Source: Verrucomicrobiaceae bacterium (lineage in GTDB: Bacteria > Verrucomicrobiota > Verrucomicrobiia > Verrucomicrobiales > Verrucomicrobiaceae). From it: a DNA stretch of 64,000 nt. This document shows positions 17,089 through 25,730 of this stretch, piece by piece; the stretch's first letter is position 1; every line of letters begins with the position of its first letter. The notes beneath the pieces were generated by a model, which was not told the origin of the DNA, made no database searches, and saw nothing but the letters and a program-made list of their open reading frames with translations. Both the position numbers and the translations under genes were made by a program. Location of the stretch: positions 1 to 64,000 of the forward strand of contig CANGYJ010000016.1 of the NCBI GenBank assembly GCA_947458455.1, in the 5' to 3' direction.

Positions 17089-19248
17089 ATGCCTGACCTC
17101 GACATTCGTGAAATCCACATCCTCCGCGGCCCCAACATCTGGGCAAACTATCCGGTGATGGAGGCGTGGGTGGATCTCGGCAGTCTGAAGGACACCGGAT
17201 CGGACGAGGTACATGGATTCAACGAGCGGCTCAAGGCGTGGCTGCCAGGCATGATCGAGCACCGATGCAGCGTGGGTGAGCGGGGTGGCTTTTTTCAGCG
17301 TCTCGATCGTGGAACCTATCCAGCGCACATCCTGGAGCATGTGACGCTGGAGCTTCAGAGCATGGCCGGGCATCCACTGGGCTTTGGCAAAGCCCGGGAG
17401 ACCTGCGTGGAAGGTCTCTACAAGGTGATCGTGCGCTTTGATGACGAGGTGGTCGTGCAGGAGTGCCTGCGCACGGCCCGTGAGCTGCTGCTCGCGGCTT
17501 ACACAGGTGGCACCTTCGATGTCGCGGCGGAGGTAAAGCGCCTTCAAGACGTGGTGGATCGCAATGCCCTCGGCCCGAGCACGAAGGCCATCGTCGATGC
17601 GGCCAAGAAGCGCGGCATTCCGTGGCGCCGGCTTCAGGAAGGACGCAGTCTCATCCAACTCGGCCAGGGAGCCAAGCAACGCCGCATCTGGACGGCCGAG
17701 ACGGATCGCACCGGAGCCATCGCGGAATACATCGCTCAGGACAAAGACCTCACTCGCACGTTTTTGAAGCAGGCAGGCGTGCCCGTGCCGGAAGGCCAGA
17801 CGGTGGGCCATGCGGACGAGGCCTGGGAAGCGGCGCAGGACATCGGCCTGCCCATCGTGGTGAAGCCGACGGATGCGAACCACGGACGCGGCGTTTTCAT
17901 TGATCTCACCACCCAGGAGCAGGTGGCGGAGGCCTACGAGCAGGCGTTGAACGAAGGCAGCGGTGTCATGGTGGAGAAATTCATCCCCGGTGTCGATCAT
18001 CGGCTGCTCGTCGTGGGCAATGACATGATCGCCGCGAGCCGTGGTGATCCCGCGGTCGTCGTCGGCGATGGGAAAAGCACCGTCGTGCAGCTCATCGACG
18101 ATCAGTTGAACTCCGATCCACGACGCGGTGAACTCGAAACCTGCCCCTGGGACAAGATCGACACCGTGAAGTGGGACCCGGTCATCCTTGCCGACCTGCA
18201 AAACCAGGGTCATCCGCCCGAATCCGTGCCGCACGATGGCGAACGCGTGATGGTGGCTCGCTTTGCCAACTGGGCCATCGACATCACCGACGAGGTGCAC
18301 CCCAGCGTGCGAGACCACGTCATCACTGCGGCGAAAGTGGCCGGCCTCGACATCTGCGGCGTGGATGTGGTTTGCGAGGATATATCCAAGCCGCTCGAAG
18401 CACAGGGCGGTGCCATCGTGGAGATCAATGCCAGCCCCGGCCTGCTCATGCACCTGAAGCCTGCCATCGGCAAAGTGCGCCCCGTAGGTGAAGCCATTGT
18501 GAACATGCTTTTCCCCGAAGGCGATGGTCGCATTCCCGTCATCGGCGTGACCGGCACACATGGCAAAACGACCACGGTGAAGCTTCTGGCCCATCTGCTG
18601 GCCTCCACGGGTAAATTTCTCGGTGCCTGCCACAGCGATGGTTTGCAGTTCGGTGAACGAAAAGCCGCTTCAAAGCAAGGTGATCGCCTTTTCGGCACAC
18701 AGGGCGTTCTGCTGCATCCGTGGACGGAAATCGCCATCTGTGAGACGAGTGCCGAATCCATCATCCTCGAAGGTGTGGGCTATGACCGCTGCCAGACAGG
18801 CGTGGTTTTGAATGTCAGCTCCGATCATCTCGGCCTCGGCTACATCGACACGCTGGTGCAGATGACGAAGGTGAAACGCTGCGTGGTGGATGTGGTGCTG
18901 CCAGGCGGCACGGCGGTCTTGAATGCCGATGATCCGCTCGTGGCGGGCATGGCGGAGTATTGCAAAGGCAGCGTGCTGTTTTTCAGCCGCGACGCCGATA
19001 ATTCGATCCTCGTCGAGCATCGTCAGAAAGGCGGACGGGCGGCTTTCGTGTCCGCAGAAAAGATCATGCTGGCTGAGGGAAGCACTGAACGTGCTCTTTG
19101 CCGCTTCGACGAGGTTTCATTGCCCCTCGAAAGTCATTTCGCCTTCCACCTGCATGACGTGCTCGCCGCCTGTGCCACGGCCTGGGATCAAGGATTGAGC
19201 GATGAGGCCATCACCGCAGGTTTACGCAGTTTCCAAATGCACTCCTGA
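17089..19248 (+). CDS. Short cyanophycin synthetase-like protein (CphA'-type)
   Basis: 719 residues against about 850-900 for CphA. Order: N-terminal domain (1-160, opening IHILRGPNIW), ATP-grasp half (about 200-470, DANHGRGV and VEINASPGLLMH), and a Mur-ligase-like half with P-loop GVTGTHGKTTT (Lys493). It stops at GLRSFQMHS, exactly where the C-terminal Mur lobe would begin, and the NLSTGGTA motif seen in the long copy is replaced by NWAIDITD. The convergent cyanophycinase gene ends 11 bases later, so there is no room for a lost 3' part: the short form looks native. Betaproteobacteria, as I recall, also carry a shorter cphA' beside cphA. A partner subunit or dipeptide-using enzyme is possible. 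Confidence 0.88.
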   Translation: MPDLDIREIHILRGPNIWANYPVMEAWVDLGSLKDTGSDEVHGFNERLKAWLPGMIEHRCSVGERGGFFQRLDRGTYPAHILEHVTLELQSMAGHPLGFGKARETCVEGLYKVIVRFDDEVVVQECLRTARELLLAAYTGGTFDVAAEVKRLQDVVDRNALGPSTKAIVDAAKKRGIPWRRLQEGRSLIQLGQGAKQRRIWTAETDRTGAIAEYIAQDKDLTRTFLKQAGVPVPEGQTVGHADEAWEAAQDIGLPIVVKPTDANHGRGVFIDLTTQEQVAEAYEQALNEGSGVMVEKFIPGVDHRLLVVGNDMIAASRGDPAVVVGDGKSTVVQLIDDQLNSDPRRGELETCPWDKIDTVKWDPVILADLQNQGHPPESVPHDGERVMVARFANWAIDITDEVHPSVRDHVITAAKVAGLDICGVDVVCEDISKPLEAQGGAIVEINASPGLLMHLKPAIGKVRPVGEAIVNMLFPEGDGRIPVIGVTGTHGKTTTVKLLAHLLASTGKFLGACHSDGLQFGERKAASKQGDRLFGTQGVLLHPWTEIAICETSAESIILEGVGYDRCQTGVVLNVSSDHLGLGYIDTLVQMTKVKRCVVDVVLPGGTAVLNADDPLVAGMAEYCKGSVLFFSRDADNSILVEHRQKGGRAAFVSAEKIMLAEGSTERALCRFDEVSLPLESHFAFHLHDVLAACATAWDQGLSDEAITAGLRSFQMHS

Positions 19249-19259
19249 GCTTCGGCGAG

Positions 19260-20363
19260 CTACTCGGGTGACACTTCAAAGCTCACCCACTTCCCTTTGT
19301 CCGGCCAGGCTTGCAGCTTCCAGCCTTCCTCGAAGTTCATTTCCCACACGCCCCTGTTCGGGTGATGGGCGTTCATGAAAAGACGCCACAGCGCAAGCTG
19401 TCGATTCTGCCCTGGCGAGGTGATGGGAAGGACGCTCGGCACGTGCGGCGGCTTCCCGGCTGGAGGTGGCGGCTTGTTGTCGAGCAATCGACGCAGCGAC
19501 ACCCTTTCTCCCTGCCTGATCAAACGTGCCCGGAGTCCACGACGCATCTGCCCTTCCGTCTCCAAATGCGTGGCATCGATGAGGAGGGAATCCGAAGGCG
19601 TCAGCCCTGTGAGCATCCCCGTGGCTAGATCGACATGCACAGCCGCATCCTCGCCCACACCGATGCCGAGCCGGTTACCCGCCGTCTCCATCATCACCAC
19701 CAGCCGTGCGAGCCTGTCCCGCTCGAAGAAATGAGATTCACTGATCGCCCAGGGCAGTAGAGCCATGCCGCTGCTCATTTTGAAATCGATCACTGTGCTG
19801 TTCTTCGGCTTGGCCGGGGCGGCGAGTGCCCCCGTATTGTCACCATGCAGTACCATGAACTCGCCCATCATCGCGTCGCCCGCGCTGCATCCGGCGATCA
19901 CGCCGCCACGGGCGAGAAGACGTTTCATCGCATGCCACTCCGGCGTCTCGCGGCCTTCGGGGCGGTAGCGTTGGGTGATCCGCGCCTGGCTGCCGCCGGT
20001 GAAAAGGATGCCCGTGGCCTCGTCGATGGCTTTCACGGTGTCCTCGGTCGAAGTCTCACGGGTGATCACACCTACCTGAACATCTGGCGACCATGCCTGG
20101 AGAGCGCTCGTCTTGCCCACGATCTCGGAATGAACCTCCTCGCCCTGCTCGGTGGCAGCGGTGGCGATGAGCACGCGCGGCTTTCCTTGGGCGGAGGCCA
20201 GCTTCAACAAGCATTCATACACGCCGCGAAGGTCATCATCGAGTCCGCCGCCGACAATCATGAGATGCCCGGCCTTCTCGCGCCGCACATTGGGTGACTG
20301 GCAGCCTGCGAGCACGAGCGCCGCGAGGAGACTGACACGAAGGAGAAAACGAAAACGGTTCAT
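19260..20363 (-). CDS. cphB: Cyanophycinase-like S51 peptidase, lipoprotein
   Basis: 367 residues. Peptidase family S51 hydrolyses cyanophycin to beta-Asp-Arg dipeptides. Visible motifs: GHLMIVGGG (32-40), LFTGGSQARI, and the nucleophile elbow IAGCSAGDAMM with Ser160. The N terminus is a lipoprotein signal ending LVLAGC (Cys21), so the enzyme should sit in the periplasm or on the outer membrane, whereas classical CphB is cytoplasmic. A C-terminal extension (about 285-367) of unknown role follows the catalytic domain. The start codon overlaps the DUF1854 stop (TGATG), so translation is coupled. A related S51 dipeptidase with another substrate is the alternative. Confidence 0.85.
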   Translation of the reverse strand: MNRFRFLLRVSLLAALVLAGCQSPNVRREKAGHLMIVGGGLDDDLRGVYECLLKLASAQGKPRVLIATAATEQGEEVHSEIVGKTSALQAWSPDVQVGVITRETSTEDTVKAIDEATGILFTGGSQARITQRYRPEGRETPEWHAMKRLLARGGVIAGCSAGDAMMGEFMVLHGDNTGALAAPAKPKNSTVIDFKMSSGMALLPWAISESHFFERDRLARLVVMMETAGNRLGIGVGEDAAVHVDLATGMLTGLTPSDSLLIDATHLETEGQMRRGLRARLIRQGERVSLRRLLDNKPPPPAGKPPHVPSVLPITSPGQNRQLALWRLFMNAHHPNRGVWEMNFEEGWKLQAWPDKGKWVSFEVSPE

Positions 20364-20815
20364 CAGTAGTATCGCTCCAGTTTGCGGCGGCTGTCACGGT
20401 CCAGCGCGGCCACATCGGCGATCAGATAGCGGGTGCCCGCTTTGTCGAAGATGACGAGCCGCGAGCCGCCGAGACTCTGGATGCTCTCATCGGTTTCGAG
20501 GCGGAAGACGGTGCTGCCACGATCTGTCTCAACGTGCCAGTCATGTCCGTCCGTAGCGCGGGTGATGTTCACGATGCGGTTGATGACGGGCACAAACTCA
20601 CGCTGCGCCAGTGCCCCCGCCAGGATCTGCCGTGGCTCATCTTCGAGTGTGTTCAAATCTTCCACACAGGCCAGTTCCCGACCGTTTTCACCCACGAGGG
20701 CGATCCAATGCTGCGGATCGGTGAGCGGGAAAAGACGCACCGGACGCACGTTTTCATGACGCACACCTTCGGCGTCGATCAGGGCAAGGCTGGAGCCGGT
20801 GGTGAGGATTTTCAT
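20363..20815 (-). CDS. DUF1854 family protein, cyanophycin-associated
   Basis: 150 residues, no signal peptide. A beta-rich small protein with RPVRLFPLTDPQHWIALVGENG and INRIVNITRATDGHDWHVETDRG, as in DUF1854 proteins. I recall this family being found next to cyanophycin synthetases together with an ABC transporter; its biochemical role is not known. Its ATG overlaps the ABC gene stop by 4 bases (ATGA) and its own stop overlaps the cyanophycinase start. A regulatory or adaptor role for the exporter is an inference from the coupling. Confidence 0.85.
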   Translation of the reverse strand: MKILTTGSSLALIDAEGVRHENVRPVRLFPLTDPQHWIALVGENGRELACVEDLNTLEDEPRQILAGALAQREFVPVINRIVNITRATDGHDWHVETDRGSTVFRLETDESIQSLGGSRLVIFDKAGTRYLIADVAALDRDSRRKLERYY

Positions 20816-22992
20816 GCGTGGTTCACCTCCTCCATGGCGGCATGCAGGCGGGCATAGGTGCCGCCATGTTTCATGAGTGCGTCGTGCGTGCCGGTTTCGC
20901 TGATGACACCGTTTTCGAGCACCACGAGGCGGTTGGCCTTCCGCAGCGTGCCGAGACGATGAGCGATGGCGATGGTGGTGCGGCCTTTGACGAGATGATC
21001 GAGCGCAGCCTGAATCTCCCGCTCGGTTTCGGTATCCACGGAAGAAGTCGCTTCATCGAGGATGAGGATCGCCGGATCGACCAGCAAGGCTCGAGCAATG
21101 CTGATGCGCTGTCTTTCACCACCGCTGAGCTGCTGGCCACGCTCACCGACCATGGAGTCGTAGCCATCGGCGAGCTTCAGGATGAAGTCGTGCGCCCGTG
21201 CCGCCCGTGCTGCGGCGATGATCTCCGCCCGCGTGGCACCGGGGCGGCCATACGCGATGTTTTCCGCGATGGTGCCAAAGAACAAATACGGCTCTTGAAG
21301 CACGAGACCGAGGTTCCGGCGGTAGTCCATCACGTCGATCTCCCGCAGGTCGTTGCCGTCGACGAGGATCGCTCCTTCGCTGACATCGAAGAAGCGGCAC
21401 ACGAGGTTGATGAGCGTGGTCTTGCCCGCGCCGCTTGGCCCCACGAGACCGATCATCTCGCCGGGGGCGATCTTCAGGCTGAAACCACGAATGATCTGGC
21501 GGATACCATGACGGAATTTGATGTCGCGAAACTCGATCTCTCCAGTCAGTCGGCCGATTTGGCGTGTATCCTTGTTCACCGGCATGTCCGGCTTCACATC
21601 GAGAATCTCAAACACGCGGTGGGCACTGGACGCCGCCCGCTGCGCCGAAGCCACGAAACGGCTCATCGAATCCAGACGACCGTAAAATTTGCCCACATAG
21701 AGCACAAAGCCAGTCAGCACGCCCACCGTCGTATGCTCCTGCGCCACACACCAGGCTCCCACCGACCACACCACGAGCAGGCCGATGTCCGTGAGGAAGT
21801 AGATCGTGGGTTCAAAGAACGACCACGTGCGGTTGACGCGGTCGTTCGTGTCAAAGATGTGCTGGTCCTGCTGGCGGAAGCGCTCAATCTCCCGCTGCTC
21901 CTGGGCGAACGCCTTGACCACTCGCACACCGGGAATCGTATCCGTGAGCACACTGTTCATGGCACTCCAGGCACGGCTGGCCGCAGCAAAACCTCCGCGC
22001 AACCTCACTCGCACCCATTGCACCAGCCAGGCGACTACAGGCAAGGGACCAAGCGCCGCGAGGGCGAGCACTGGATTGATCGAAAACATCACCACGGCCG
22101 TGAAAACGATCGTCAGCACATCGCAGGCGAAGTCGATGAAATTGATCGAGATGAAGAGGGAGATGTTGTCCGTATCCGAGCCGATGCGGGAGATCAGATC
22201 CCCCGTGCGCTTCTTGTTGAAGTAGCCAAGAGAGAGCTTCTGAAGATGCTCAAAGGTGGCGCGGCGCATCTGGCTGGTCACCCGCTCCGCCAGCCGGGCG
22301 ACGACGTAGGTTGTGGCCCACTTTAGTATCCAGGTGAGCACCGCCGCGCCCAGCAGGCCGCCTGCGAAGCGATAGACCCGAGCCGTGTCGATCTCATGCG
22401 TGGCGCTTTGCAGCGGAATGAGCACGTCATCGACCAGCGACATCGTGAGCCAGGGGCCGATCAAACCCGCGCCGGTGCTCGCCACGGTCAATCCTAGGCC
22501 GCAAAGCATCAAACCGATCCAGGGGCGGGAAAAGCCCAGCAGGCGCAGAAGTGGCTTTGAAGCGAGCTTGGGCACTGAGGCAGGTTCCGCAGCAAAAAGA
22601 TCCTCTTCTTCATCGTCACCCGCTTCGTCGTCGTTTCCGTTCGATCCTCGCAATTCGTGAAAGCGCACAATGAATGCCTCGATGTCCCTCAGAAATCTGG
22701 ATGTCAGCCGCCAATGCCACGCCGTCGAATCCCCCGTTTGGAGATGCAGCGCCACGGTCGGCCCCATCTCCTCCAAAACCAGCTCATGGATGTCCCCGAG
22801 CTTCCATTCATGAAAAACGGCCTCTTCGAGATGCAGCAGCCGCAGGTTTGTCAGCACGATCAGCCCGGCGTGAAAGCGCAGCGTGCGGTTCAGGTCCGTT
22901 TGCAGGCTGGCGACCATGCGCTCACCCAGAGCCAGCCGCGATTCGGCATGCTGGAACAGGGTTGGAGAAGCGTCTCGAGGGTCGTGAGGCAA
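20812..22992 (-). CDS. ABC exporter (fused permease-ATPase), cyanophycin-associated
   Basis: 726 residues. An N-terminal domain (about 1-115, LTNLRLLHLEEAVFHEW) looks like a GRAM/PH-type beta fold and is unusual for an exporter. It is followed by an acidic linker, a six-helix type-1 exporter domain (about 160-450) and an ATPase: Walker A GPSGAGKTT, Q-loop VLQEPYLFF, signature LSGGERQR, Walker B ILILDEATSSVD, H-loop IAHR. Half-transporter, so it should dimerise. The start shown is a TTG; the next ATG (22917) would cut into the N-terminal domain. First gene of the coupled three-gene unit. Substrate unknown; dipeptide or lipid are both possible. Confidence 0.9.
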   Translation of the reverse strand: MPHDPRDASPTLFQHAESRLALGERMVASLQTDLNRTLRFHAGLIVLTNLRLLHLEEAVFHEWKLGDIHELVLEEMGPTVALHLQTGDSTAWHWRLTSRFLRDIEAFIVRFHELRGSNGNDDEAGDDEEEDLFAAEPASVPKLASKPLLRLLGFSRPWIGLMLCGLGLTVASTGAGLIGPWLTMSLVDDVLIPLQSATHEIDTARVYRFAGGLLGAAVLTWILKWATTYVVARLAERVTSQMRRATFEHLQKLSLGYFNKKRTGDLISRIGSDTDNISLFISINFIDFACDVLTIVFTAVVMFSINPVLALAALGPLPVVAWLVQWVRVRLRGGFAAASRAWSAMNSVLTDTIPGVRVVKAFAQEQREIERFRQQDQHIFDTNDRVNRTWSFFEPTIYFLTDIGLLVVWSVGAWCVAQEHTTVGVLTGFVLYVGKFYGRLDSMSRFVASAQRAASSAHRVFEILDVKPDMPVNKDTRQIGRLTGEIEFRDIKFRHGIRQIIRGFSLKIAPGEMIGLVGPSGAGKTTLINLVCRFFDVSEGAILVDGNDLREIDVMDYRRNLGLVLQEPYLFFGTIAENIAYGRPGATRAEIIAAARAARAHDFILKLADGYDSMVGERGQQLSGGERQRISIARALLVDPAILILDEATSSVDTETEREIQAALDHLVKGRTTIAIAHRLGTLRKANRLVVLENGVISETGTHDALMKHGGTYARLHAAMEEVNHA

Positions 22993-23168: not shown

Positions 23169-25730
23169 GTGCGAAAAATCAACGCCCTTCGCGGGCCGAA
23201 CATCTGGGCACGAGACACCGTGCTGGAATGCCGCGTCGAGTTCCCCGAGATCACCGCTTTCGTCCCCAACTGGACGGATTGGCTCGTCTCCTGGCTACCC
23301 ACCTTGGAAAGCGTCTTCAAGGAAGCCGCACAACCGGATGCGGACACGCTCGCCATGCTGCTCCAGCACATCACGCTGCATTTGCAGAGCCGGACGGACC
23401 TCCAGGTGAGCTTTGGCAAGGTCGTGGAAGGCAGCGAGCCCAAGGTGCGCCGCATCATCACGCAGTTTGACGAGGAAGCCGTGGCCCGTGCGGCCTTTGA
23501 CCTCGCTCGCCGTCTCATCGAAGCAGCGCTCATTGGCCAGACGTTCGATGTCAACGCCGCCATCGAAGGCCTGCGTGATCTCGCCCACGACATCTGCCTC
23601 GGCCCCAGCACGCGGGCGATGGTGGATGCGGCCAAGGTGCGCGGCATTCCAGTGCGTCGTTTGACGGAAGGAAGCCTCGTGCAGCTCGGCTGGGGCTCGA
23701 AGCAGAAGAAGATCCTCGCCGCAGCCACCAGCCAGACCAGCGCCATCGCGGAAGACATCGTGCAGGATAAAGATCTCACGCGCCGCCTTCTGAACGAAGT
23801 GGGTCTGCCCGTGCCGCAAGGCCGCCCTGTGCGCTCCGCCGAAGATGCGTGGAATGCCGCGAATGAGATCGGCCTGCCCGTGGTGGTAAAACCGCGAGAC
23901 GGCAATCAAGGCCGTGGCGTGGCTTTGAACCTCTATACCCGCGAGCAGGTCATCAAAGCCTACGAAGCCGCGAAAGTGGAGAGTGATTCCGTGCTCGTGG
24001 AGCAGTTCGCCGAAGGGGAAGACTACCGCGTTCTCGTCATTGGCAGGCAGCTCATTGCCGCCTCACGCCGCCAACCGGCGCATGTCATCGGCGATGGTGT
24101 GCAGACCATCCATGAACTCATCGCCGAGAAAAATCGTGATCCGCTCCGTGCTTCCGATCACGCCGCCGCTTTGAGCAAGATCCGCATTGATGCCGTGGCC
24201 TTGCAGGTGCTAGCCGAGCAGGATGTGACGCCAGACTCCGTGCCTGAAAAAGGCCGCATGATCCTCATCCGCCGCAATGCCAACCTCAGCACCGGCGGCA
24301 CGGCGGCAGATTGCACACCCGAAGTGCATCCCACCATCTGCGCCGCCGCCGTCGAAGCCGCACAAACGGTGGGCCTCGACATCTGCGGCATCGATATGAT
24401 CGCGCCAGACATCTCCGCGCCTCTCAGCCCGCAAAACGGTGTCATCATTGAGCTCAATGCTCGCCCCGGCCTGCGCATGCATTTGTATCCCTCGGAGGGC
24501 CAACCACGCCCCGTGGGCAAGGCGGTGATCGACACCATGTTCGCAGAGAATTGCAGCGGCCGCATTCCCATCGTCGCCGTGACGGGCGTGAATGGCAAAA
24601 CGACGACCACGCGCTTCGTCGCCCATCTGATGCGCACGAATGGCTGGCGAACCGGCCTCACGAGCACGGACGGCGTCTTCGTGGATGATCGGAAGATCGA
24701 CAGCGGAGATTGCAGCGGCCCGAAAAGCGCCCGCAGTATCCTCGCTTTTCCGCTTTGTGATGCTGCCGCCCTCGAAACCGCTCGTGGAGGCATCCTGCGT
24801 GAAGGTCTGGCCTTTGATCATTGTGACGTGGCCATCGTCACAAACATCGGCTGCGGTGATCACCTCGGCATCAACGAGATCGACACGCCGGAGCAGCTCG
24901 CCGAGGTGAAGCAATGCATCGTGGCCGCCGTGCCCGCCCACGGCACCGCTGTTTTAAATGCCGCCGATCCGCTCGTCGTGAAAATGGCCGAGACGTATCC
25001 TCGAAGGACCATCTTCTTTGCCCTCGATGGCGGTAACGCCGTCCTCGTCCGCCATCGTTTTCAAGGCGAGCGCGTCATTTTCTCACGCGAAGGCCAGATC
25101 ATCCGAGCGGAAGGTCCTCGCGAGGAGGTCTTCATTCCTTTGGCGGAGGTTCCGCTCACTCGCGGTGGCAAAATCGGCTTCCAAGTCGAAAACACCCTCG
25201 CCGCCATCGCGGCCATGTGGGCGCTCGGGGTGGATGATGAGGTCATCCGCCAAGGCTGCCGCACCTTCATCCCAAGTCTTGATCAGAACGCCGGACGCTT
25301 CAACGTGCTCGAATTAAAGGGCGTGACCGTCATCGTTGATTACGGCCACAATGTCGATGCGCTCAAAGCGCTGCTCGAAGGCCTGCGCCAGTTCGAAAAC
25401 CAGCGCCGTCTCGTCGTTTACACCTCCGCTGGCGACCGCCGTGATACCGACATCATCGAGCAAGGTCGCCTCCTCGCCGTCGAATTCGATGAAGCATGGC
25501 TTTATGAAGGCGATTACGTCCGAGGTCGCGAACCCGGCGAAATCATGCGCCTGCTCGCCACCGGCCTCCAAGCCTCTCCGCGCCTCAAACGCATCGAAAG
25601 CATCTTCGGCCACCTCAAAGCCGTCGATCTCGCCCTCGAATCCGCCAAGCCCGGCGACCTCGTCATGATCCAGGCGGATACCGCCGAGGAAACGGTAGAG
25701 CATTTGAGGTCCGCACATGGAGCCCGGTGA
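23169..25730 (+). CDS. cphA: Cyanophycin synthetase
   Basis: 853 residues from a GTG at 23169, placed to match the N terminus of the short paralogue (KINALRGPNIW). An in-frame ATG at 23010 would add 53 residues of no recognisable fold, so the start is uncertain. Polymerises Asp and Arg into cyanophycin, using ATP. ATP-grasp half: DGNQGRGV, RNANLSTGGTA, IIELNARPGLRMH. Mur-ligase half: P-loop VTGVNGKTTTTR (Lys477), and a complete C-terminal lobe from about 706 (AGRFNVLELKGVTVIVDYGHN). Divergent from the ABC exporter, with a shared gap of about 180 bases that must hold both promoters. Confidence 0.93.
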   Translation: MRKINALRGPNIWARDTVLECRVEFPEITAFVPNWTDWLVSWLPTLESVFKEAAQPDADTLAMLLQHITLHLQSRTDLQVSFGKVVEGSEPKVRRIITQFDEEAVARAAFDLARRLIEAALIGQTFDVNAAIEGLRDLAHDICLGPSTRAMVDAAKVRGIPVRRLTEGSLVQLGWGSKQKKILAAATSQTSAIAEDIVQDKDLTRRLLNEVGLPVPQGRPVRSAEDAWNAANEIGLPVVVKPRDGNQGRGVALNLYTREQVIKAYEAAKVESDSVLVEQFAEGEDYRVLVIGRQLIAASRRQPAHVIGDGVQTIHELIAEKNRDPLRASDHAAALSKIRIDAVALQVLAEQDVTPDSVPEKGRMILIRRNANLSTGGTAADCTPEVHPTICAAAVEAAQTVGLDICGIDMIAPDISAPLSPQNGVIIELNARPGLRMHLYPSEGQPRPVGKAVIDTMFAENCSGRIPIVAVTGVNGKTTTTRFVAHLMRTNGWRTGLTSTDGVFVDDRKIDSGDCSGPKSARSILAFPLCDAAALETARGGILREGLAFDHCDVAIVTNIGCGDHLGINEIDTPEQLAEVKQCIVAAVPAHGTAVLNAADPLVVKMAETYPRRTIFFALDGGNAVLVRHRFQGERVIFSREGQIIRAEGPREEVFIPLAEVPLTRGGKIGFQVENTLAAIAAMWALGVDDEVIRQGCRTFIPSLDQNAGRFNVLELKGVTVIVDYGHNVDALKALLEGLRQFENQRRLVVYTSAGDRRDTDIIEQGRLLAVEFDEAWLYEGDYVRGREPGEIMRLLATGLQASPRLKRIESIFGHLKAVDLALESAKPGDLVMIQADTAEETVEHLRSAHGAR

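Follow-up and report, generated by a model that had tools for sequence, protein, structure and literature searches.

Reciprocal loss of active sites in a short and a long cyanophycin synthetase suggests a naturally split enzyme

In the cyanophycin synthetase SuCphA1, the N domain is reported to cut cyanophycin segments mainly into (beta-Asp-Arg)4, and either a G- and M-dead SuCphA1 or the N domain alone frees TmCphA1 from its need for primer in trans (PMC9262961). The same source describes an active engineered heterodimer, N-G+M+/N+G-M-, and for CphA1 enzymes with a dead N-site, which need primers, it suggests leftover chains or other cellular molecules as the in vivo source. For TeCphA1, PMC9427784 names R323, N394, and R458 as the residues that hold the substrate Asp and reports their Ala mutants to be impaired, along with a substantial drop in activity when the M lid is deleted. 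Here we analyze a stretch of 64,000 nucleotides (the window; positions 1 to 64,000 of contig CANGYJ010000016.1, assembly GCA_947458455.1) from a 5.35-Mb Verrucomicrobiaceae genome, in which the gene for a short cyanophycin synthetase-like protein (copy A) lies approximately 4 kb from a full-length cphA gene (copy B). We consider it probable from sequence comparison that the two proteins form a naturally split cyanophycin synthetase, in which the short protein produces the primers that the long polymerase extends.

Active sites of the two copies

Both proteins, encoded on the forward strand, were mapped onto TeCphA1 (7wac, Trichodesmium) through HMMER alignments, using the functional residues given in parts of PMC9262961 and PMC9427784; unless a residue is assigned to one of the copies, the numbering is that of TeCphA1. 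The short protein (719 amino acids [aa]; 17089..19248) comprises an N domain, a G (ATP-grasp) domain, and an M-core without the M lid. The N domain (approximately residues 1 to 160; 17089..17568; PF18921) is its most conserved domain and has a complete N-site (H57, C59, F67, R70, H79, E82, H83, and E87), in which the Cx19HxxEH motif (17266..17340) consists of C60, H80, E83, and H84 of the short copy (C59, H79, E82, and H83 of TeCphA1). The G domain (17569..18522) retains the ATP, Mg, and chain-end residues K220, K261, H267 (H265 of the short copy, 17881..17883), R309, D431, and E450, while the Asp-acceptor site is lost: R323, the binder of the Asp beta-carboxylate, is replaced by G319 (18043..18045), and R458, the binder of the alpha-carboxylate, by L453 (18445..18447). 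A preliminary description of this locus had NLSTGGTA replaced by NWAIDITD in the ATP-grasp half. The motif is indeed lost, but by deletion of S396 to I400 rather than by substitution; N394, the only Asp-binding residue left, begins the remaining N-W-A-I-D-I (18268..18285).

The M-core of the short copy (18523..19233) contains a P-loop, GTHGKTTT (G489 to T495 of the short copy, 18553-18573), as had been noted. An intact P-loop does not imply a working M domain here, because R561 (the R of ETARGG) is replaced by A555 (18751-18753), the lid is absent, and one short-copy orthologue (G138) has lost the P-loop. The protein ends at GLRSFQMHS, its stop codon (19246..19248) standing directly ahead of the DYGHN lobe into which the long copy extends. 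Of the two proteins, Pfam assigns Mur_ligase_C only to the long one, and the boundaries and missing C-lobe first ascribed to the short gene were correct. In the long copy (CphA-homologous part, 23169..25730; the open frame runs from 22674 and the true start is uncertain), seven of the eight mapped N-site residues are lost and H83 alone is kept: within 23310..23381, C59 aligns with F (HMMER) or K (MAFFT), H79 is M, and E82 is Q. Its Asp site, including the NLSTGG loop (24282..24299), its M site, and its lid (PF02875; 25281..25727; R731 and H748 kept) are complete, and H267 is replaced by Q412 (23907..23909). Each copy thus lacks what is present in the other.

The same division recurs among relatives, which we compiled into a residue table after dropping 15 near-identical rows. 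K220, K261, H267, R309, D431, and E450 are invariant in all 72 copy-A rows, and the G domain is therefore no relic; it probably still acts as a ligase that uses ATP, although its acceptor has changed. The R323 position is G in 74/74 copy-A rows and R in 78/78 other full CphAs, the sole G-domain position separating the two at the 85% level, and R458 is kept in 0/72 copy-A rows. Because a script assigned the classes from R323, R458, and loop length, differences at these positions are partly by definition, whereas the counts of catalytic residues are independent of it. Likewise, Cx19HxxEH occurs in all 35 rows of the class A_short, which the motif itself helps to define; it is also found in 11/11 complete shorts of the genus. 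One short of the A clade (L193) lacks an intact N-site, reading HCFCHERE. We also considered whether the Gln at H267 in the long copy signals dependence on the His of the short copy. This idea was dropped because Gln occupies the position not only in 53/53 N-dead copies but also in 11 of 25 N+ full copies, and six genomes of the latter kind (G091, G093, G096, G097, G098, and G100) yielded no second CphA at E 1e-30 in whole-genome searches.

The truncation of the short copy, on sequence comparison, is old. All 30 orthologues with a visible stop end within approximately 12 residues of the same place (708 to 727 aligned residues), and we found no same-strand lid remnant 3' of the stop in the window or in 19 other verrucomicrobial loci, the four weak lid-like matches (E 0.002 to 0.85) all lying on the opposite strand. 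The shared ends and the lack of a same-strand remnant rule out a recent nonsense mutation or an assembly error, so that the stable architecture proposed earlier, from the mere 11 bases (19249-19259) that separate the short gene from its convergent neighbor, stands. L077, L081, and L082 end at contig ends and were left out of the stop count; L088 and L089, assigned to A_short by the script, have lid sequence in the downstream DNA and were not counted as shorts.

By family models, the short protein exceeds the cutoff of the broad cyanophycin synthetase subfamily NF010623 (948 bits against 877) and falls under that of the CphA equivalog TIGR02068 (765.2 against 850). Short-type genes belong to a cyanophycin synthetase subfamily model, yet alone will probably not make cyanophycin. 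The preliminary description had likewise proposed that the short protein is no standard Asp-Arg polymerase on its own, a view supported by its conservation and by the loss of Asp-binding residues and the lid. The protein scores 523 to 548 bits to cyanobacterial CphA1 (376 to 548 across five CphA1 sequences) and 171.8 and 163.5 bits to the CphA2 structures 7ta5 and 8fxh. These scores, together with the Cx19HxxEH motif and the P-loop, rule out membership in CphA2, to whose dipeptide-polymerizing type the protein had at first been compared. An AlphaFold2 model built on an alignment of 54 sequences (mean predicted local distance difference test score, 91.7; predicted template modeling score, 0.87) matches TeCphA1 7wae_C best in the PDB (Z 48.4; root mean square deviation [rmsd], 3.0; 710 aligned), with 7txv also a whole-chain match (Z 44.2); the CphA2 7ta5 match is lower (Z 28.3; rmsd, 3.9; 570 aligned). 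Both whole-chain matches span model residues 4 to 718, and the modeled protein appears to have the N-domain fold of SuCphA1 and TeCphA1.

Distribution of the N-site and domain constraint

Among 24 genomes of the genus, 14 contain both copies and 10 contain neither (Fisher p 5e-7, with phylogeny ignored and some genomes incomplete), and the reciprocal active-site pattern holds without exception in the 11 complete shorts and 14 longs. From the order, 239 genomes were sampled, with at most four candidates scored per genome; 37 had a match and 33 of these a short copy. All but one of the 33 also have the long copy, and in the remaining genome (G207) the start of the long copy lies at a contig edge. 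The preliminary description had allowed that the short copy might prove absent from relatives; it is conserved. A class-level sample gave a match in only one of 57 genomes, the window's own. Beyond the order, a species-genome scan with two N-terminal peptide patterns from the short-copy alignment, from which we took the best 80 loci of 145 relatives, recovered verrucomicrobial and planctomycete genomes as well as metagenome-assembled genomes (MAGs) titled Myxococcales, Deltaproteobacteria, and Bryobacterales. Planctomycete/myxococcal tandems begin with a full-length copy A, which has a complete M domain and lid, an intact N-site, and a lost Asp site; copy B, the second gene, has a dead N-site but is complete in all other respects. 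Compared with these, verrucomicrobial copy A, which forms a clade with support of 0.999 in a G-domain tree built without the acceptor columns, has additionally lost the lid and M-site residues.

Where both members of a pair could be read, the N-site was present in exactly one of them, never in both or neither (72/72 pairs). It lies on copy A or, twice, on a G-deleted partner in 57 pairs and on the other copy in 15. The count combines 50 and 15 pairs with five from the order sample (two having the G-deleted partner) and two planctomycete pairs. Since the N motif was used to tell A_short, A_full, and A_650 apart, and likewise B_N- from full_N+, the test is how these states combine per genome; the species-genome scan was seeded with copy A, and the order and planctomycete samples are less biased. 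Entries with one readable member were left out (six A_short, two A_full, three B_N-, and nine full_N+), L060 was kept because its long copy was found as L198, G118, which has two shorts (the second being L193, with a degenerate N-site), was counted once, and G029, with two distant copies, was omitted from the analysis. Second copies of other types (L178 to L180, L181, L182, L183, two in L104, and one in L114) are not pair members, and G090, G094, G095, G099, G115, G116, and G118, which have such copies, each hold an N+ copy.

The planctomycete sample of 294 genomes, scored for three candidates per genome so that weaker second copies are possible, gave 33 genomes with a match: 30 with a sole CphA, two with A+B pairs, and G090. 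All 30 sole CphAs are N+ at the four motif residues, both A+B pairs are N+/N-, and G090 has one N+ copy and one N- copy of another type. Two genomes of the order (G202 and G282) have the G-deleted partner instead of the short copy, beside a long copy B that is N-dead and otherwise complete. This partner has a complete N-site, a G domain of approximately 195 residues (320 elsewhere) without K220, K261, and E450, a P-loop reading GSSGTSE or GSSGTTE, and no lid; as far as its residues indicate, the N-site would be the only known active site left to it. A Bryobacterales locus (L114; L114:4436-6634 and L114:12616-14463) divides the two features of copy A over two proteins: of its three cphA genes, one is complete, and the extra two encode an N+ protein with a deleted G domain and a protein with a remodeled G domain without N-site or P-loop. 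In an N-domain tree, the G-deleted protein of L114 clusters with the complete CphA encoded beside it at that locus; the tree leaves the origin of the G202/G282 partners unsettled.

The copy-A clade including Pirellula-type forms is monophyletic in the G-domain tree (support, 0.92). Whole-genome searches of 34 genomes revealed, in 13 of the 14 Pirellula-type genomes that seemed to have one complete CphA and no other, a second protein of 625 to 673 aa elsewhere, which shares the remodeled G domain and lacks the N-site, P-loop, and lid; family searches of the genes adjoining these forms yielded no functional hint. A plasmid search returned one place per record, at 28.9 to 40.2% identity.

Domain constraint differs between the copies. 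Across 29 verrucomicrobial genomes with both, mean pairwise identity in copy A is 0.77 for N, 0.73 for G, and 0.62 for M, and in copy B it is 0.59 for N, 0.82 for G, 0.77 for M, and 0.76 for the lid, so that the N domain ranks first in A (N > G > M) and last in B (N < M < G). For planctomycete/myxococcal tandems, the values are 0.73, 0.69, 0.64, and 0.48 (lid) in A and 0.42, 0.75, 0.70, and 0.64 in B. The Pirellula-type form of about 650 aa has 0.46 for N, 0.78 for G, and 0.36 for M, and its partner has 0.86, 0.88, 0.83, and 0.80 (lid). In eight genome pairs of the genus, omega ranged for the G domain from 0.023 to 0.053 in A and 0.022 to 0.051 in B, for the M-core from 0.071 to 0.160 in A and 0.035 to 0.078 in B, and for the N domain from 0.024 to 0.088 in A and 0.039 to 0.120 in B (one value undefined); several synonymous divergences exceeded 1, making omega rough. 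The N and G domains of the short protein are both maintained, and M less so.

Other CphA-like proteins were observed in the surveyed genomes. Three verrucomicrobial genomes (L178, L179, and L180) encode a third protein of 585 to 600 aa in which H267 is Y, R323 and the loop length are retained, and the N-site, P-loop, and lid are missing. The L179 protein matches CphA2 (7ta5) from residue 33 onward, and the three are possibly non-cyanobacterial relatives of CphA2, an enzyme described from cyanobacteria. The distant CphAs of G169 and G299 (L202 and L203) have Lys at H267 and no N-site, and the L202 protein ends before the lid. An Isosphaeraceae locus contains two more proteins of approximately 650 aa (L104:2168-4111 and L104:4027-5976) with R323 kept, W or Y at H267, and no P-loop. 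At 16 planctomycete loci among L210 to L234 (e.g., L213:4250-5500 and L212:4099-5001), a frame closely 3' of the sole cphA encodes a second Mur-ligase-like core with NKSTER or NKTTER at the M-site residues, its end lying outside the sequence analyzed.

A split synthetase and competing explanations

Under the split-synthetase reading, the long copy would polymerize, adding Asp in the G domain and Arg in the M domain with its lid, and its N domain lacks the metal site for cutting cyanophycin into primers. The short copy, with a predicted endo-cyanophycinase (metallopeptidase) site retained, would add no free Asp or Arg and would provide the long copy in trans with (beta-Asp-Arg)n primers, the two perhaps meeting in a mixed oligomer. 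It is the published results on the N domain, the Asp site, and the lid that make primer making the best reading of the short protein. A primer-making or complementing subunit was among the roles first proposed, and it is now well supported by the sequence comparisons through the N domain, which the preliminary description did not mention; its interpretation overall is partly supported. A second function beside primer making is likely, since the ATP-grasp catalytic residues are invariant, purifying selection is strong, and the acceptor pocket is remodeled.

Several points weigh against this reading. The pattern in 72 pairs may reflect perhaps four to six independent losses, as read from the G-domain tree, and not 72 events. 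In G169 and G299, the one CphA is distant and N-dead, and no N+ partner was detected; TmCphA1, likewise N-dead, is active when given primer. A partner is therefore not strictly required. The copy-A relative found in G092 and in 13/14 Pirellula-type genomes retains only the remodeled G domain and has lost the N-site, so that primer making cannot be the sole function of the family. Among the eight genome pairs, N-domain omega in A is not below that in B for L040/L042, and the two are nearly equal for L037/L036. Mutation of H267 to Ala leaves SuCphA1 and TeCphA1 inactive or weak, and the long copy has Q there; that its G domain works is suggested by sole-copy CphAs that also have Q. Finally, the engineered heterodimer with split sites is reported to be somewhat less active without primer than the form with all sites on one chain (PMC9262961).

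A different explanation, which we regard as somewhat doubtful, is that the short protein resembles CphA2 in function, its remodeled G domain joining cyanophycinase-released beta-Asp-Arg dipeptides to chain ends; the Arg-adding M domain would have become dispensable and lost its lid, and such an activity could coexist with a primer role. This would fit the retention of every catalytic ATP-grasp residue beside altered Asp-recognition features, a G domain that evolves as slowly as that of copy B, and the decay of M in verrucomicrobial shorts and in Pirellula-type forms that conserve G, and CphA2 is likewise described as without lid and P-loop (PMC9427784). However, R458, the holder of the acceptor alpha-carboxylate, is gone even though this group would also be present in a dipeptide, and full-length planctomycete/myxococcal copy A has a complete M domain and lid. 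The sequence is also far nearer CphA1, alignment spans suggest that CphA2 retains the Asp loop, and the reciprocal loss of the N-site would be left unexplained.

Also conceivable, if unlikely, is that copy A represents an undescribed clade of acceptor-switched cyanophycin ligases, in which ATP would activate the cyanophycin C terminus for joining to something other than free Asp. The residues for both Asp carboxylates are gone, and the acceptor may therefore have both capped, like the N terminus of another cyanophycin chain, which would perhaps make the enzyme a segment-joining ligase. The clade, taken as having a single origin in the G-domain tree, would span Verrucomicrobiota, Planctomycetota, and the MAGs titled Myxococcales, Deltaproteobacteria, and Bryobacterales. 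If this is true, a segment-joining ligase with its own cutting site would edit both the length and the number of chains, with a separate polymerase at its side.

It seems quite improbable to us that the short protein has no activity and serves as a regulatory or structural subunit shaping the long CphA oligomer. Its sites for adding Asp and Arg are damaged, a dimer interface lies on the G domain of TeCphA1 according to PMC9427784, and the model keeps the CphA1 fold; yet a scaffold needs neither metal-site residues nor H267, K261, R309, D431, and E450, all of which are conserved, and the G202/G282 partner dispenses with the ATP-binding part of G while retaining the N-site. A decaying duplicate without function is hardly credible: its M domain evolves at approximately twice the rate seen in the long copy, but omega for N and G is 0.02 to 0.09, the 30 visible stops coincide, and the copy strictly co-occurs with the long one in the genus.

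Gene neighborhood and comparison with described systems

Between the two cphA genes of the window lie three genes on the reverse strand. The first encodes a cyanophycinase-like S51 peptidase (19260..20363; PF03575; TIGR02069, 109.7 bits, under the cutoff of 126.6) whose leader, by eye, looks like that of a lipoprotein (GCSAG), and is given as context only. It is followed by a CphA-associated DUF1854 protein (20363..20815; NF052234, 157.7 against a cutoff of 150) and an ATP-binding cassette (ABC) transporter with membrane and ATPase domains in one chain (20812..22992; PF00664 and PF00005), both frequent neighbors. Cyanophycinase-like genes were near cphA in only two (L093 and L106) of the best 80 loci, and no gene similar to that of the window (BLASTP E 1e-8) lies beside the short gene in the verrucomicrobial loci examined. 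In a close relative, a Tgl transglutaminase-family frame (L052:12214-13338; PF20085) follows the short cphA in its place.

We did not find such a division of labor between two CphAs described in the parts of the open-access cyanophycin literature examined. Two-copy cphA clusters with an ABC transporter nearby occur in Accumulibacter and other sludge bacteria (PMC10687191) and share these two features with the window; Sideroxydans has adjacent CphA1 and CphA2 genes (PMC5178258), resembling the window in its two cphA copies. The genes of Ralstonia eutropha H16 are reported to have given no cyanophycin in either host tested (PMC8560796, citing Adames 2013).

The short protein resembles CphA1 (SuCphA1 7lg5 and TeCphA1 7wae) in its three-domain fold, N-site motif, ATP-grasp catalytic residues, and M P-loop, and differs in its missing lid, R561-to-A change, deleted Asp loop, lost R323 and R458, and score under the TIGR02068 cutoff. 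With CphA2 (7ta5 and 8fxh) it shares an N-G-M arrangement without lid, in which G is the only ligase site likely to work, but it has the N-site and the P-loop, which CphA2 is described as lacking (PMC9262961 and PMC9427784, respectively), and its Asp loop is deleted. The remodeled G domain points to a further ligase activity that could serve in making modified cyanophycin. The pair looks like a natural form of the N-G+M+/N+G-M- heterodimer, which to our knowledge exists only as an engineered construct, and a defined partner gene with the missing site makes the question of the primer source directly testable. In the engineered SuCphA1 heterodimer, as in the combination of the N domain with TmCphA1 (PMC9262961), one chain cuts primers and the other polymerizes; those are laboratory constructs, whereas here the same division would be made by a natural gene pair.

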